Part shown: in pieces, positions 21,556 to 63,012 of the stretch
Numbering within the stretch: position 1 is the stretch's first letter
Layout: each line of letters starts with the position of its first letter
Assembly (NCBI GenBank): GCA_903935355.1
Contig: CAIZRK010000020.1
Span: 19,515-83,514, forward strand
Length of the DNA: 64,000 nt
Source of the DNA: an uncultured beta proteobacterium
GTDB taxonomy: Bacteria; Pseudomonadota; Gammaproteobacteria; Burkholderiales; Burkholderiaceae
Reading direction: 5' to 3'
Position numbers and translations under genes: made by a program
Notes under the pieces: model-generated
Database searches by the model: none
Seen by the model: only the letters and a program-made list of their open reading frames with translations
Told to the model about the DNA's origin: nothing

Positions 21556-22053
21556 CTATTTTCGATTTAAGGTAATGAAGTTAAAGCTAATATCACCTTC
21601 AGATGCTGGTGTCCGCTCAACCTCTTTCCACTCAGATTGATTGGGCACCTCAAAGAATGTATCGCCACCCTCTATATCGATCTCGATCTCGGTGATATAC
21701 AGACGATCTGCTTTAGAAAAGGCTTGGGTAAAGAGTTGCTCTCCACCAATGACAAAAGCACGGGGGGCTTCACTCAGGCTACTAAGAGCAGCATCGAGTG
21801 AGTTAACTACTTCTGCACCCGTAAGTTGCAGGTGAGCATTACGACTCACCACAATATTGCGACGCCCTGGTAATGGGCGTCCAATCGATTCCCAGGTCTT
21901 ACGACCCATAATGACGGGGTGACCCATTGTCACTTTTTTAAAGAATTGGAGGTCAGCAGAAATCTTCCAAGGCATTTGGTTATCACGACCAATAACATGG
22001 TTACGCGAGCGCGCTACGATCATAGAAATAGCAGGGTGTGTAGCTACTGTCAT
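21556..22053 (-). CDS. folA: Dihydrofolate reductase
   Basis: ISMIVARSRNHVIGRDNQMPWKISADLQFFKKVTMGHPVIMGRKTWESIGRPLPGR. Confidence 0.97.
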   Translation of the reverse strand: MTVATHPAISMIVARSRNHVIGRDNQMPWKISADLQFFKKVTMGHPVIMGRKTWESIGRPLPGRRNIVVSRNAHLQLTGAEVVNSLDAALSSLSEAPRAFVIGGEQLFTQAFSKADRLYITEIEIDIEGGDTFFEVPNQSEWKEVERTPASEGDISFNFITLNRK

Positions 22054-34665: not shown

Positions 34666-37299
34666 TTAAACCATTTTTTCTTGGTTACTGGTTTCCACGA
34701 GCACCATGGGAGCATCTGACAGGCTTACGGGTGCCTTAGGCGCCCTGCCCAACTTGACTACTTCGGGTTCTGCCTTTATCTGGGACTGTGAATCCGCGTG
34801 TTTACCAGAATCTGTTGCAACCCAAATCATGCCGGCTGATTGAACCACGCTATGCAAAGGGGTTTCTTCTAGCGCTTGAAAGGCCACTTTAGGAAGCTCA
34901 GGCATGGGTTTGGCAATTACCTCAATCGTCGCAATAGCTATGGAAGCTGCTTGAGGTACTGGCACAGCAGTATTTTCAGTACGATTACTTTGACGAGGTG
35001 CACGCGGTGCTCTTGGCTCACGAGGGGCTTTATCTTTAACTTCGTTAGCAGGCGCAACTGGGGTAAGTGGATTGAAGCTTTGTGTAATGTTTTGGATAGG
35101 CATGGAAGCGCTAGTACCAGCCATTCCAATAGGAGGGCCTGAGAAACTGACCTCTGTAACTGCTCCAGTTTCAGATGCAGAACTTACTTCACTATTACCC
35201 TCAGTACGCTCGCTACGTTGACCACGGCCACGACCACGGCGGTTACGACCACGGCCACGACGATCTTCACCATCGGTACTTGGAGTAACTTCAGTGCCAG
35301 ATGCTGCTTCCGTAGCTGGGCTTATAGCTGCTTGGGTCTCTGATTTGGGATTATTTTGATTGCGGTTATTGCGGTTACGACCATCTTGACGACCCTTACC
35401 AGAACTTGCTTCGCGTGGAGCGCTTATTCCTTCGGTGCTTACAACTGCACCTTCAGTATTGGTTGCAGGACGTTCGGCGCGCTCACCTCGGCGGCCACGG
35501 TTGCGGTTGCCATTGTTATTGCGATTATTAGGGTTGCGACCACGGGGTGCACTAGGAACAGGCTTTACCTCGGGGGTAGGCGTTGAGGAGAAAATACGTT
35601 TAATAAAGCCAAACAAGCCGCCACCAGCACTTTCCACGGGAGTTGTACTTGCCCGTGCAGGGCGTGGTTGGCTTACTGGAGCAGGTTGGTTCGGTGTAAT
35701 ACCTTTAACTGCAGCTTCAGGCCGCACTTTAAGGTCTGCATCTTTACGGCTCACAGTAGTATCAGTTTCTAATTCATGCGCAGCTTCTTCGGCCATCACA
35801 TAGCTGGCTTTTTGGTCATCCAAACGAGGGTCATCATGACGCAAACGCTCAAGCTTGTAATGGGGTGTTTCTAAATGCTTGTTTGGAATCATCAAGACAT
35901 TGACTTTGAAGCGAGTCTCAATTTTGATCACTTCAGGACGCTTTTCATTCAAGAGGAAGGCAGCCACTTCGACTGGTACCTGTGTATGAATCGCTGCTGT
36001 ATTTTCTTTCATTGCCTCTTCTTGAATGATGCGCAAGACTTGCAATGCCGAAGACTCAGTATCCCGAATATGGCCAGTGCCATTACAACGCGGGCAGGTG
36101 ACGTGACTACCTTCGGAGAGTGCTGGGCGCAAACGTTGGCGGGACATTTCCATCAAACCAAATTTGGAGATCTTACCCATCTGAACACGGGCACGGTCAT
36201 GCCGCAGAGCATCGCGTAGGCGATTCTCAACATCCTTTTGCGCTTTGCCCGAATCCATATCAATAAAGTCGATCACGATCAAGCCACCTAAGTCACGTAA
36301 ACGTGCTTGACGGGCAATTTCATCGGCAGCTTCTAAGTTGGTACGAGTGGCGGTTTCTTCAATATCGGAGCCACGGGTGGCACGTGCTGAGTTGACGTCT
36401 ACGGAAACCAATGCTTCTGTGTGGTCAATCACAATCGCCCCGCCAGATGGTAATGGCACGGTACGTGAGTACGCAGTTTCAATTTGATGTTCAATCTGAA
36501 AACGTGAGAACAACGGCACATCGTCGTGATAACGCTTTACTCTGGGCAGATTATCTGGCATTACCACTGACATAAACGCTGCAGCTTGTTCGTAGATGTC
36601 ATCCGTATCAATGAGAATCTCACCAATATCAGGTTGGAAATAATCCCGAATCGCCCGAATAACTAGACTAGATTCGAGGTAAATTAACAAGGGCGCTGAA
36701 TTACCTTTAGCGGCTTCATCAATCGCACTCCATAATTGCATGAGGTAACTTAAGTCCCACTGCAGCTCAGTGGCATCACGACCAATACCAGCAGTGCGGG
36801 CAATGATGCTCATGCCATCTGGGATATGTAATTGAGACATGGCATCCCGGAGTTCTTGACGGTCTTCACCTTCAATGCGGCGGGATACACCACCTCCACG
36901 TGGGTTATTTGGCATCAATACCAAATAACGGCCAGCTAGAGAAATAAAGGAGGTTAAGGCAGCACCTTTTTGGCCACGTTCTTCTTTTTCTACCTGGACA
37001 ATGATTTCTTGGCCTTCACGCAAGGCTTCTTTAATAGAGGCATTTCGGACATCAATACCATCCTTAAAGTAGGTGCGAGCAACTTCTTTAAATGGCAGGA
37101 AGCCATGACGTTCTTCGCCGTAATTGACAAAGCAAGCTTCGAGCGATGGCTCAATGCGAGTAATGACACCTTTGTAAATATTGCCTTTACGTTGTTCGCG
37201 ACCAGCAGCTTCGATATCGATATCGATGAGTTTTTGACCATCGACAATGGCAACTCGCAACTCTTCTTGTTGAGTTGCATTAAATAACATGCGTTTCAT
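34666..37299 (-). CDS. rne: Ribonuclease E
   Basis: MKRMLFNATQQEELRVAIVDGQKLIDIDIEAAGREQRKGNIYKGVITRIEPSLEACFVNYG; CPRCNGTG zinc-link; Arg/Gly-rich C-terminal scaffold. Confidence 0.97.
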   Translation of the reverse strand: MKRMLFNATQQEELRVAIVDGQKLIDIDIEAAGREQRKGNIYKGVITRIEPSLEACFVNYGEERHGFLPFKEVARTYFKDGIDVRNASIKEALREGQEIIVQVEKEERGQKGAALTSFISLAGRYLVLMPNNPRGGGVSRRIEGEDRQELRDAMSQLHIPDGMSIIARTAGIGRDATELQWDLSYLMQLWSAIDEAAKGNSAPLLIYLESSLVIRAIRDYFQPDIGEILIDTDDIYEQAAAFMSVVMPDNLPRVKRYHDDVPLFSRFQIEHQIETAYSRTVPLPSGGAIVIDHTEALVSVDVNSARATRGSDIEETATRTNLEAADEIARQARLRDLGGLIVIDFIDMDSGKAQKDVENRLRDALRHDRARVQMGKISKFGLMEMSRQRLRPALSEGSHVTCPRCNGTGHIRDTESSALQVLRIIQEEAMKENTAAIHTQVPVEVAAFLLNEKRPEVIKIETRFKVNVLMIPNKHLETPHYKLERLRHDDPRLDDQKASYVMAEEAAHELETDTTVSRKDADLKVRPEAAVKGITPNQPAPVSQPRPARASTTPVESAGGGLFGFIKRIFSSTPTPEVKPVPSAPRGRNPNNRNNNGNRNRGRRGERAERPATNTEGAVVSTEGISAPREASSGKGRQDGRNRNNRNQNNPKSETQAAISPATEAASGTEVTPSTDGEDRRGRGRNRRGRGRGQRSERTEGNSEVSSASETGAVTEVSFSGPPIGMAGTSASMPIQNITQSFNPLTPVAPANEVKDKAPREPRAPRAPRQSNRTENTAVPVPQAASIAIATIEVIAKPMPELPKVAFQALEETPLHSVVQSAGMIWVATDSGKHADSQSQIKAEPEVVKLGRAPKAPVSLSDAPMVLVETSNQEKMV

Positions 37300-37672
37300 A
37301 ACATTCTCCTATGGGGGAGGATGCCGTTGCGCGTTGCGATAGGAGGAAGTTAGTAAGCGCTTGGGGTATACCCACTAGCGGCTTTAGAGTGTGGATCAAG
37401 CAAATCTAGGCATATCTTACCTAGTACACCGACTTAAACCTTAGTTCAATCAGCGCCACACTTGACGATCGCCGCAGAGACCTCCTTTAGGTCATCAATG
37501 CAGGCGCGCGCCTGAAAACTCTCTTCTAATCGCGGGTCGCGGCATACGGCACACCAACCCTGCGCCTCATTACAACGGGGGAGGGGCAACCCCGGGAGTC
37601 TATTAAGGGCGACTCCAAGCTCCACGATTCAAGCCTTAATCAGGCTGGTCTCGGGCCAATAAATTGGCTAGA
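37300..37672 (-). promoter_or_regulatory. Long structured 5' leader of rne, candidate autoregulatory element
   Basis: Non-coding gap of about 370 nt to a minus-strand TATAAT, with several inverted repeats (37501-37514, 37576-37594, 37595-37616, 37655-37668) and an SD-masking repeat 37306-37319. Confidence 0.55.
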
Positions 37673-37678
37673 GCGTTG

Positions 37679-37684
37679 ATTATA
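37679..37684 (-). promoter_or_regulatory. Putative -10 element (TATAAT) for rne
   Basis: Perfect TATAAT on minus strand upstream of rne; -35 is weak. Confidence 0.4.
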
Positions 37685-37750
37685 CGGCACAAGTTGAATG
37701 ACAATGGGGTATTGTTAAGTCCCTTGCCGAGGTGGCGAGAGAGATTAATT

Positions 37751-38773
37751 ATGAAACCCGAGACAAATACTAAGCTCCCTAAGGTAAAAGCAATCGTTCT
37801 GCCGGCGGTCTATCTGCAGACTATAGGCCCAGAAGAAGCTGGGCAACGCTTGGACAACTATCTCTTGCGATGGGCAAAAGGAGTACCCAAAAGCCATGTT
37901 TATCGAATTATTCGCTCTGGTGAGGTTCGGGTAAATAAGAAACGAGCAGAGCCAACTACGCGTTTAATCGAGGGCGATGTTGTCAGGCTCCCCCCAGTTC
38001 GATTGGCAGAGCCTGCCCAAATGGTGGCAATAAATAGTGCTCAAACTCAGTCCCGTGCCCAAGGCTATTCTGAGAAAATGCCCATTCTTTTTGAGGATGA
38101 TGCTTTATTAATAGTGAATAAGCCAACTGGACTAGCTGTTCATGGGGGGTCGGGCATTGCCTTGGGGGTAATTGAGGCCTTAAGGATTACTCGTCCTGAG
38201 CTGAAATTTTTAGAGTTGGTACACCGCTTGGATCGGGATACTTCAGGCGTATTACTTCTAGCCAAGAAACGGAGTGCCTTGGTAGAGATGCATCGCCAAA
38301 TTCGGGAGGGGCACACAGATAAGCGCTATTACTTACTTGCCCATGGTGAAATAGTGCAGGGTGCGGGGGTTATGCAACTCAAGTTTGCGCTCCATAAATA
38401 TTTACTTCCCAATGGCGAGCGACGTGTGCGCGTTGACCCTAACGGCTTACCAAGCCACACCGCTTTGCGTGTGAGCAAGGTATTTAAGCGCGCTGATGCC
38501 GCTATTACTTTGGCCGAGGCCCAGTTAAAGACAGGGCGAACCCATCAAATTCGTGTACACCTACAAAAATTGGGCCATGCGATTTTGGGTGATGATAAAT
38601 ATGGCTTTGAAGACCAAGATAAGCAGATTAAATCTAAGCGTTTGTATTTACATGCCCACTTGGCTGGCTTTACACACCCCCGCACTGGTGAAAAAATGCG
38701 TATCGAGTCGCCATTGCCCCCAGAATTTATAGCGATGATGAATCATTTTTCCCCATTAGTCGATACTGCCTAA
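37751..38773 (+). CDS. rluC: RluC-type 23S rRNA pseudouridine synthase
   Basis: ELVHRLDRDTSGVLLLAKK, GRTHQIRVHLQKLGHAILGDDKYG, S4 domain; start 37751 preferred to 37664. Confidence 0.92.
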   Translation: MKPETNTKLPKVKAIVLPAVYLQTIGPEEAGQRLDNYLLRWAKGVPKSHVYRIIRSGEVRVNKKRAEPTTRLIEGDVVRLPPVRLAEPAQMVAINSAQTQSRAQGYSEKMPILFEDDALLIVNKPTGLAVHGGSGIALGVIEALRITRPELKFLELVHRLDRDTSGVLLLAKKRSALVEMHRQIREGHTDKRYYLLAHGEIVQGAGVMQLKFALHKYLLPNGERRVRVDPNGLPSHTALRVSKVFKRADAAITLAEAQLKTGRTHQIRVHLQKLGHAILGDDKYGFEDQDKQIKSKRLYLHAHLAGFTHPRTGEKMRIESPLPPEFIAMMNHFSPLVDTA

Positions 38774-56249: not shown

Positions 56250-57326
56250 ATGAGCAAGTCGACCATGAATCCAGGACCAATTACATTAGATGTAATGGGT
56301 TTGGAATTAAATACCGAAGATCGTCGTCGCATTTTGGATCCGCTAACGGGCGGTGTGATTTTGTTTGGCAGAAATTTTTCCAATCGTCAGCAGCTAACTA
56401 AATTAACTGCTGACATTAAAAAATTGCGTTCGGATGTATTGATCTCCATTGATCACGAGGGCGGGAGAGTACAGCGTTGTAAAACGGATGGCTTTACATA
56501 TCTACCTGCGATGCGCAAATTAGGTGATTTATGGACGGCTAAAAATAAATCAAATCACCTTGCAGAATCGGCTGCACAAGCCATGGCTGCAGCTACTGCC
56601 TGTGGATACATATTAGCTGCCGAGCTGCGCGCTTGCGGGGTTGACTTTAGTTTTACCCCAGTGCTCGATTTAGATTTTGGTCGTAGTGGCGTCATCGGTG
56701 ACCGTTCCTTTAGTCGTGATCCTCAAATTGTTTTCGCCTTGGCCAAGAGCCTGAACGAAGGCCTACGTTTGGCTGGTATGGCTAACTGCGGCAAACATTT
56801 TCCGGGGCATGGTTGGGCAGAGGCAGATTCTCATGTAGCCATTCCAGTAGATGAACGGTCATTGACAGAAATCTTAAACAATGATGCTAAACCCTATGAA
56901 TGGCTTGATCTTAGCTTGGCTGCAGTAATGCCTGCGCACGTGATTTATCCCAAAGTAGACCAGTTGCCCGCTGGTTTTTCTAAGATTTGGTTACATTCAG
57001 TCCTACGTCAAGAGTTGGGTTTCCAAGGCGTTATATTTAGCGACGATCTCTCCATGGAGGGGGCTAGCGTTGCGGGCTCAGTAGTTAAGGGCGCAGAGTT
57101 AGCGCTCAATGCAGGTTGCGATGCCGTGCTGATTTGTAATCGACCTGATCTGGCCGATCAATTGCTCGCTCATCTCAAGGTCAGCAAAGCAAAGCTTGCT
57201 GAATCAGTGATTCGATTAAATCGTTTAATGCCTAAGTCACCTGCATTGTCATGGGATGACCTTCAGAATGAACCGCAATATCAACATGCTCTAGGTTTGC
57301 TTAAGCAATTTAATTTACTTCAATAA
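56250..57326 (+). CDS. nagZ: Beta-N-acetylhexosaminidase
   Basis: ISIDHEGGRVQRC; GKHFPGHGWAEADSHVAIPVDER; GVIFSDDLSMEGA. Confidence 0.96.
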   Translation: MSKSTMNPGPITLDVMGLELNTEDRRRILDPLTGGVILFGRNFSNRQQLTKLTADIKKLRSDVLISIDHEGGRVQRCKTDGFTYLPAMRKLGDLWTAKNKSNHLAESAAQAMAAATACGYILAAELRACGVDFSFTPVLDLDFGRSGVIGDRSFSRDPQIVFALAKSLNEGLRLAGMANCGKHFPGHGWAEADSHVAIPVDERSLTEILNNDAKPYEWLDLSLAAVMPAHVIYPKVDQLPAGFSKIWLHSVLRQELGFQGVIFSDDLSMEGASVAGSVVKGAELALNAGCDAVLICNRPDLADQLLAHLKVSKAKLAESVIRLNRLMPKSPALSWDDLQNEPQYQHALGLLKQFNLLQ

Positions 57327-62811: not shown

Positions 62812-62887
62812 GCGGGAATAGCTCAGCTGGTAGAGCGATACCTTGCCAAGGTATAGGTCGGGAGTTCGAACCTCCTTTCCCGCTCCA
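62812..62887 (+). tRNA. tRNA-Gly (GCC)
   Basis: Cloverleaf: GCGGGAA/TTCCCGC acceptor, GGTCGGGAGTTCGAACCTCC T-arm region, loop TTGCCAA, encoded TCCA end. Confidence 0.96.
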
Positions 62888-62893
62888 AGTTCG

Positions 62894-62923
62894 ATGGGAA
62901 GCCCTTAAAAGCTTCCCATTTTT
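62894..62923 (+). terminator. Terminator between tRNA-Gly and tRNA-Cys
   Basis: ATGGGAAGC...GCTTCCCAT followed by TTTT. Confidence 0.7.
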
Positions 62924-62938
62924 GATTTCAGTATCTGT

Positions 62939-63012
62939 GGCGCGTTGGCCGAGTGGTTAGGCAGGAGCCTGCAAAGCTTCGTACGGGGGTTCGATTCCCT
63001 CACGCGCCTCCA
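62939..63012 (+). tRNA. tRNA-Cys (GCA)
   Basis: GGCGCGT/ACGCGCC acceptor, loop CTGCAAA, GGGGTTCGATTCCC T-arm, encoded CCA. Confidence 0.95.

Follow-up and report, generated by a model that had tools for sequence, protein, structure and literature searches.

RNase E, the main RNA-cutting enzyme, governs the bulk decay of mRNA. Its level has been studied in few bacteria, and in these it is controlled by feedback via the leader of its own mRNA. The rne5 element (RF00040) of E. coli is the established sensor for this feedback, which in enterobacteria is reportedly exerted via hp2 (work attributed to Diwa et al. 2000). Another structured RNA, rne-II (RF01756), lies upstream of rne in the Pseudomonadales and is presumed to be cis-regulatory (PMC2864571), while the Synechocystis enzyme exerts feedback by cutting a U-rich stretch of its own leader, and premature termination takes place (PMC10989929). 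Within the Burkholderiales, a report on B. pertussis describes the RNAs bprA1 and bprA2, 250 and 300 nt long and of rne sense, from the gap upstream of rne, and proposes them as an rne 5' UTR element (PMC3110155). When RNase E is mutated in the same species, rne ranks with the most strongly upregulated genes (PMC8386462), and B. cenocepacia has a short 5'-UTR transcript at its rne gene, BCAL2888 (PMC5688073). The B. pertussis sRNA S17 was also considered as a counterpart and rejected, since it is transcribed from a promoter of its own and no connection with rne is stated for it (PMC11722255).

The leader analysed here lies in a 64,000-nt stretch of DNA, which we call the window, from an uncultured beta proteobacterium whose genome is of the type of Polynucleobacter, a genus of freshwater bacteria. 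Gene calls placed rne at 34666-37299 on the minus strand, starting at 37299 and encoding an RNase E of 877 aa, and the divergent rluC, encoding a 23S rRNA pseudouridine synthase, at 37751-38773 on the plus strand with an ATG at 37751, both as in the preliminary description. The two products score above the cut-offs of the Rne/Rng and RluA family models respectively, with RluC as the best equivalog for the second, whereas scores with the equivalog models for RNase E and RluC fall short of the strict cut-offs. A DNA search for relatives found matches in 140 of 151 Polynucleobacter genomes, and 80 Burkholderiales rne loci were retrieved, among which rne adjoining rluC is the usual gene order. The gap between the two genes had been described as free of any convincing coding sequence, and this was borne out: the single short frame in its conserved core, a candidate upstream ORF (AUGAGGCGC...), was ruled out because neither start codon nor frame is conserved. 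The start is AUG in the window and ACG in a related group of leaders (L085, L114, L116 and L119), and indels disrupt the frame. As this AUG frame is not kept across the leaders, the conservation of the core is not coding.

Rfam 15 covariance models were then compared with positions 36800-38300. Neither rne5 nor rne-II matched there at E <= 5, rne-II had no match at the gathering threshold anywhere in the window, and Polynucleobacter-1 (RF01718) and the other Rfam families were unmatched as well. Since the same library finds rne5 in E. coli at 235 bits (gathering 180), a known Rfam family is ruled out for this leader, which is distinct from both rne5 and rne-II, as had been supposed. The only two gathering-level matches in the window are tRNAs, namely tRNA-Gly (gcc) and tRNA-Cys (gca) at 62812-63012. 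The leader resembles rne5 in belonging to the same gene, in being long, structured and of similar length, and in being on the sense strand of the rne 5' UTR, but it is unmatched by the rne5 model and its core has a predicted pseudoknot. With rne-II it shares the position of a structured RNA upstream of rne and a presumed cis-regulatory role, although rne-II belongs to another lineage (PMC2864571) and its model does not match. The Synechocystis leader has a U-rich stretch cut by RNase E in feedback, as we propose below for this one, but the lineage is unrelated and the premature termination found there contrasts with the lack of a good terminator here (PMC10989929). The bprA RNAs share with it the order Burkholderiales and the origin of short rne-sense RNAs in the gap upstream of rne (PMC3110155); however, leaders of the Alcaligenaceae showed no detectable resemblance to the Polynucleobacter core in sequence or model comparisons. 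The suggestion that such an element may be uncharacterised has to be qualified, bprA having already been proposed as an rne 5' UTR element (PMC3110155).

A TATAAT at 37679-37684 on the minus strand, 385 nt upstream of rne, had been taken as the source of a 5' UTR of about 370 nt, and the conservation of this -10 box in the genus supports that assignment, with only one of 103 Polynucleobacter leaders lacking the TATAAT that the other 102 have. Because possession of TATAAT was the criterion for including leaders in the 67-leader alignment used below, the conservation of the box was taken from the wider set of 103. A consensus -35 was looked for ahead of the box in the window and none was seen. 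From the conserved promoter, the predicted start is at about 37672, 7 nt past the box, so that the segment 37300-37672 (minus strand, about 372 nt) is, on this evidence, the 5' UTR of rne. Just upstream of the -10 box, between the divergent promoters, an inverted repeat CAATGGGGTATTG (37702-37714) is conserved in the main Polynucleobacter clade and is possibly a regulator site or part of the rluC promoter.

Across 67 distinct leaders, identity to the window is 87-98% in 15-nt bins of a core at 37460-37624 (minus strand) and about 95% in most of these bins, compared with mostly 53-70% for the flanking bins. Compared with 100 dinucleotide shuffles, the folding energy of the minus strand of 37280-37690 has a z of -4.5. 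However, 300-nt pieces of the leader reach only about -1.6 to -3.0 over a window background of -0.4 +/- 1.2, and several other sites in the window fold as extremely as the leader does, so folding energy alone is weak evidence. Among such pieces, 21600-21900 on both strands and 56250-56550 on the minus strand fold more stably than dinucleotide shuffles, with z of about -3.3 to -3.9. That the structure of the leader exceeds chance rests instead on conservation and preserved pairing. In its helices G-U pairs outnumber A-C mismatches by 280:40, which shows that the selected RNA is the rne-sense strand and rules out an antisense, rluC-sense RNA.

The inverted repeats named in the preliminary description are all present in the gap, and most of the hairpins keep their pairing across relatives. 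Each named helix was tested on the tree, by reconstructing its substitutions, dropping them again at random on the branches and comparing the paired cells; 13 helices were tried and the p values given here are uncorrected for that number. Nearest the 5' end of the transcript, hairpin P0 (GCCAAUUUAUUGGC, 37655-37668; all helices are on the minus strand) keeps its pairing through two-sided changes, with 310 of 335 cells paired against a null mean of 229 (p = 0.005). A second hairpin, AGCCU/AGGCU at 37632-37646, gave p = 0.01. The GGAGUC/GACUCC hairpin P1 (37595-37616) is paired in 201 of 201 cells of its varying pairs (p = 0.005), and two of its pairs have changed on both sides in a 19-leader alignment. 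The stem-loop P3 (37534-37560) is paired in 264 of 268 such cells at p = 0.09, and is 99% paired in the 19-leader alignment. Taken together, P1, P3 and the two pseudoknot stems S1 and S2 described below have 99.8% of their cells paired in that alignment; sliding the helices by 1-3 columns lowers this to 38-54%. Three of their pairs are altered on both sides. A blind all-pairs covariation test of the leaders gave no pair at E < 0.05, its signal being dominated by shared ancestry; the structural support thus applies to the stated helices and not to discovery from scratch. Conservation and covariation among relatives, on which the proposal of a structured leader had been made to depend, were both found, in the core and in the covarying helices.

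A U-rich linker (37513-37533) separates P3 from P4, a long interrupted stem at 37464-37512 which includes GACCU/AGGUC. Its segment P4a is paired in 268 of 268 cells despite 15 substitutions, a value reached by 0 of 400 nulls (p < 0.0025); P4c and P4d gave p of about 0.05 and P4b is invariant. The palindrome CAGGCGCGCGCCTG (37501-37514), listed earlier as a perfect palindrome, is not supported as a hairpin of its own (p = 0.10, support below that of P4) and is better explained as part of the longer P4 stem predicted here. The loop region of P4 carries AAAGGAGGU (37484-37488 and neighbours, 37480-37488, minus strand), which matches the 16S anti-Shine-Dalgarno over its full length. Most leaders keep it, although no start codon follows at a distance suited to translation; might it act in ribosome standby or as a decoy? 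Further downstream, hairpin P5 (37406-37424) has 385 of 468 cells paired against a null mean of 228 (0 of 400 nulls) and is followed by AUUUGCUU, and the stretch downstream of it, 37406-37397, is the least paired of the leader in the single-sequence ensemble. An intrinsic terminator at 37424-37406 was rejected, as there are just three consecutive U and the terminator count is not above that of shuffles. For the CUCC/GGAG hairpin over the rne Shine-Dalgarno (37306-37319) the test gave p = 0.39, its halves being nearly invariant, and it is absent or broken in deeper clades; the masking suggested earlier thus gains no support.

Within the core, the CGGGG/CCCCG hairpin (S1, 37576-37594) is predicted to take part in an H-type pseudoknot, because its loop GCCCCUC (37587-37581) can pair with GAGGCGC (37568-37562), seven bases downstream, to form a second stem, S2 (37562-37587). 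Every one of the 103 parsed leaders has all five S1 pairs, in the forms CGGGG/CCCCG, CAGGG/CCCUG and CAAGG/CCUUG as well as G-U intermediates, and 134 of 134 cells are paired in the tree test (p = 0.06); the parser demanded full S1 pairing, and the match was still found at the homologous place in the Polynucleobacter leaders. S2 occurs as GCCCCUC/GAGGCGC, GCCUCUC/GAGACGC and GCUCC/GGAGC, most of these with a mismatch. It is invariant in the main clade and does not vary in the tree test, and its compensated changes are found in two deep clades, with few deep events behind them. In all 103 leaders S1 is complete and S2 pairs in at least 5 of 7 positions, with a predicted geometry of L1 of 2-3 nt, L2 of zero and L3 of 6-8 nt, L3 spanning S1. 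A competing CGC/GCG pairing of the S2 strand with the base of P3 was rejected: it is broken in 7 of 34 testable leaders, while S2 is maintained. The assignment of the CGGGG/CCCCG hairpin as stem 1 of a predicted H-type pseudoknot covarying between deep clades is therefore well supported, if short of proven.

A covariance model built on P1, the pseudoknot and P3 matched at rne in 116 of 117 good-quality Polynucleobacter genomes. Complete genomes of the genus gave one confident match each, and second matches were either weak (E >= 0.1) or in fragmented assemblies. None of the genomes from 24 other genera of the family was matched, and 200 genomes of the order gave three marginal matches (E 0.008-0.07 per genome), none of them at rne; judged by this model, the P1-pseudoknot-P3 RNA is restricted to Polynucleobacter. 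The sole exception among the 117, the complete genome G023 (leader L125 / L175, contig C1, about 72213-72560), has cleanly lost some 132 nt between the second hairpin and mid-P4, including P1, the pseudoknot, P3, the linker and the 5' arm of P4, with rne intact. Its -10 box, TACAAT, is the only altered one in the 103 leaders, and G023 can be used for comparison as a natural deletion mutant with an altered promoter. We conclude that the rne leader is real, conserved and structured, and contains a predicted pseudoknot. It has no entry in Rfam, occurs in Polynucleobacter only and adds a compact RNA to the known rne leaders.

What the leader does is probably, in our view, to serve as an RNase E feedback element, the cutting, the cut sites and the feedback itself being inferred. 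The leader transcribed from the TATAAT at 37679-37684 would fold into a conserved cis-acting RNA in the order 5' hairpin, P1, H-type pseudoknot, P3 stem-loop, U-rich linker, P4 and later P5, and would give RNase E a preferred substrate within its own mRNA. The 5' hairpin may shield the mRNA from 5'-end-dependent attack, while the pseudoknot, P3 and P4 might attract the enzyme and expose RN|WUU sites to it as single strands in the linker, after P5, or both. RNase E in excess would then cut at these sites, removing the leader and beginning the decay of rne mRNA, which would survive when the enzyme is occupied elsewhere. RN|WUU is described as the ideal RNase E site (PMC11722255). The P3-P4 linker carries it in 65 of 67 leaders, compared with 19.8 in shuffles, and the stretch following P5, where AUUUGCUU is the second candidate, carries it in 52 of 67, compared with 23.7; as the motif is loose and the leaders are related to one another, this enrichment is suggestive only. 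The linker is not especially unpaired in the single-sequence ensemble. The argument for autoregulation draws on gene identity, precedents in other lineages and the published Bordetella and Burkholderia data, from leaders that are not detectably homologous to this one. Our own computations show the extent of the leader, from promoter conservation, its conserved strand-specific structure with compensatory changes and its single-copy association with rne. Against feedback, G023 is a complete genome that has lost the core and yet retains rne.

Other roles would also account for some of these features. The compact pseudoknot, with invariant bases in loop and stem, has a geometry typical of sites that bind ligands or proteins, and the conservation of the core exceeds pairing needs, as might be the case if it sensed a metabolite, a ribosomal protein or another RNA-binding protein and controlled rne as a riboswitch-like or protein-binding leader. 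We find this unlikely, given that the element is single-copy and occurs only at rne rather than at other pathway genes, that it has no Rfam riboswitch match and that the precedent in other bacteria is rne feedback. It is less likely again that the chief product of the leader is a short, stable RNA of about 265 nt, made by cleavage or termination after P5, which acts in trans: the 250-300 nt rne-leader RNAs of B. pertussis (PMC3110155), the B. cenocepacia transcript (PMC5688073) and the strong support for P5 would fit, but there is no good terminator, the locus is single and always in cis to rne, and feedback cleavage predicts a short RNA equally well.

A slightly poorer candidate still is a structure that merely stabilises or insulates the rne mRNA by constitutive 5' protection, with no sensing. 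P0 is conserved in structure rather than sequence near the 5' end, and loss of the core does occur in nature (G023), yet for simple stabilising a pseudoknot and some 165 nt conserved at mostly 95% identity would be unnecessary, nor does it accord with the rise of Bordetella rne upon RNase E impairment (PMC8386462). That the conservation acts on DNA, through rne and rluC promoters or regulator sites, with the hairpins incidental, is very improbable and already disfavoured: the divergent promoters do share the gap with the conserved repeat at 37702-37714, but the core lies 60-220 nt downstream of the predicted rne start, and compensatory changes preserve its pairing, with G-U tolerated and A-C not. 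Beyond the RNase E feedback reading itself, it is conceivable, though doubtful, that lineages evolved unrelated structured rne leaders for the same task, that the Polynucleobacter pseudoknot is the RNase E sensor, that G023 has naturally lost this sensor and that its change from TATAAT to TACAAT compensates lost repression. If true, the sensor would represent a novel class of RNA, through which RNase E recognises the rne mRNA in a way not seen before. Whether unrelated leader structures converge on RNase E sensing or sense different things is now a testable question.

The inference of a betaproteobacterial counterpart to the known leaders held in part, in that long structured rne leaders are found across the Burkholderiales while the specific RNA is found only in Polynucleobacter. 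Exactly one TATAAT lies within 1 kb of rne in all 40 non-Polynucleobacter Burkholderiales loci (L066-L110), against 2.8 of 40 expected from shuffling. The positions of these boxes imply that the 5' UTRs of rne there are about 430-990 nt long. Consensus structures were more stable than column-shuffled alignments in Cupriavidus (z -11.5), Burkholderia-like leaders (-6.2), Ralstonia (-5.3), Oxalobacteraceae (-4.3) and Alcaligenaceae (-2.7). Five of these other leaders had no credible match in Rfam, and the Polynucleobacter core was not detectable in other Burkholderiales leaders by sequence and model comparison. The same pseudoknot was also rejected for them, as a generic scan gave shuffle-level matches for nearly all sampled leaders; the Ottowia leader L110 scored higher than the others. 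Long structured rne leaders thus appear general in the Burkholderiales, including Burkholderia, Ralstonia, Cupriavidus, Herbaspirillum and Bordetella. A AACAGAATT-like motif before a GC-rich hairpin recurs in the leaders of Cupriavidus, Ralstonia and Herbaspirillum.
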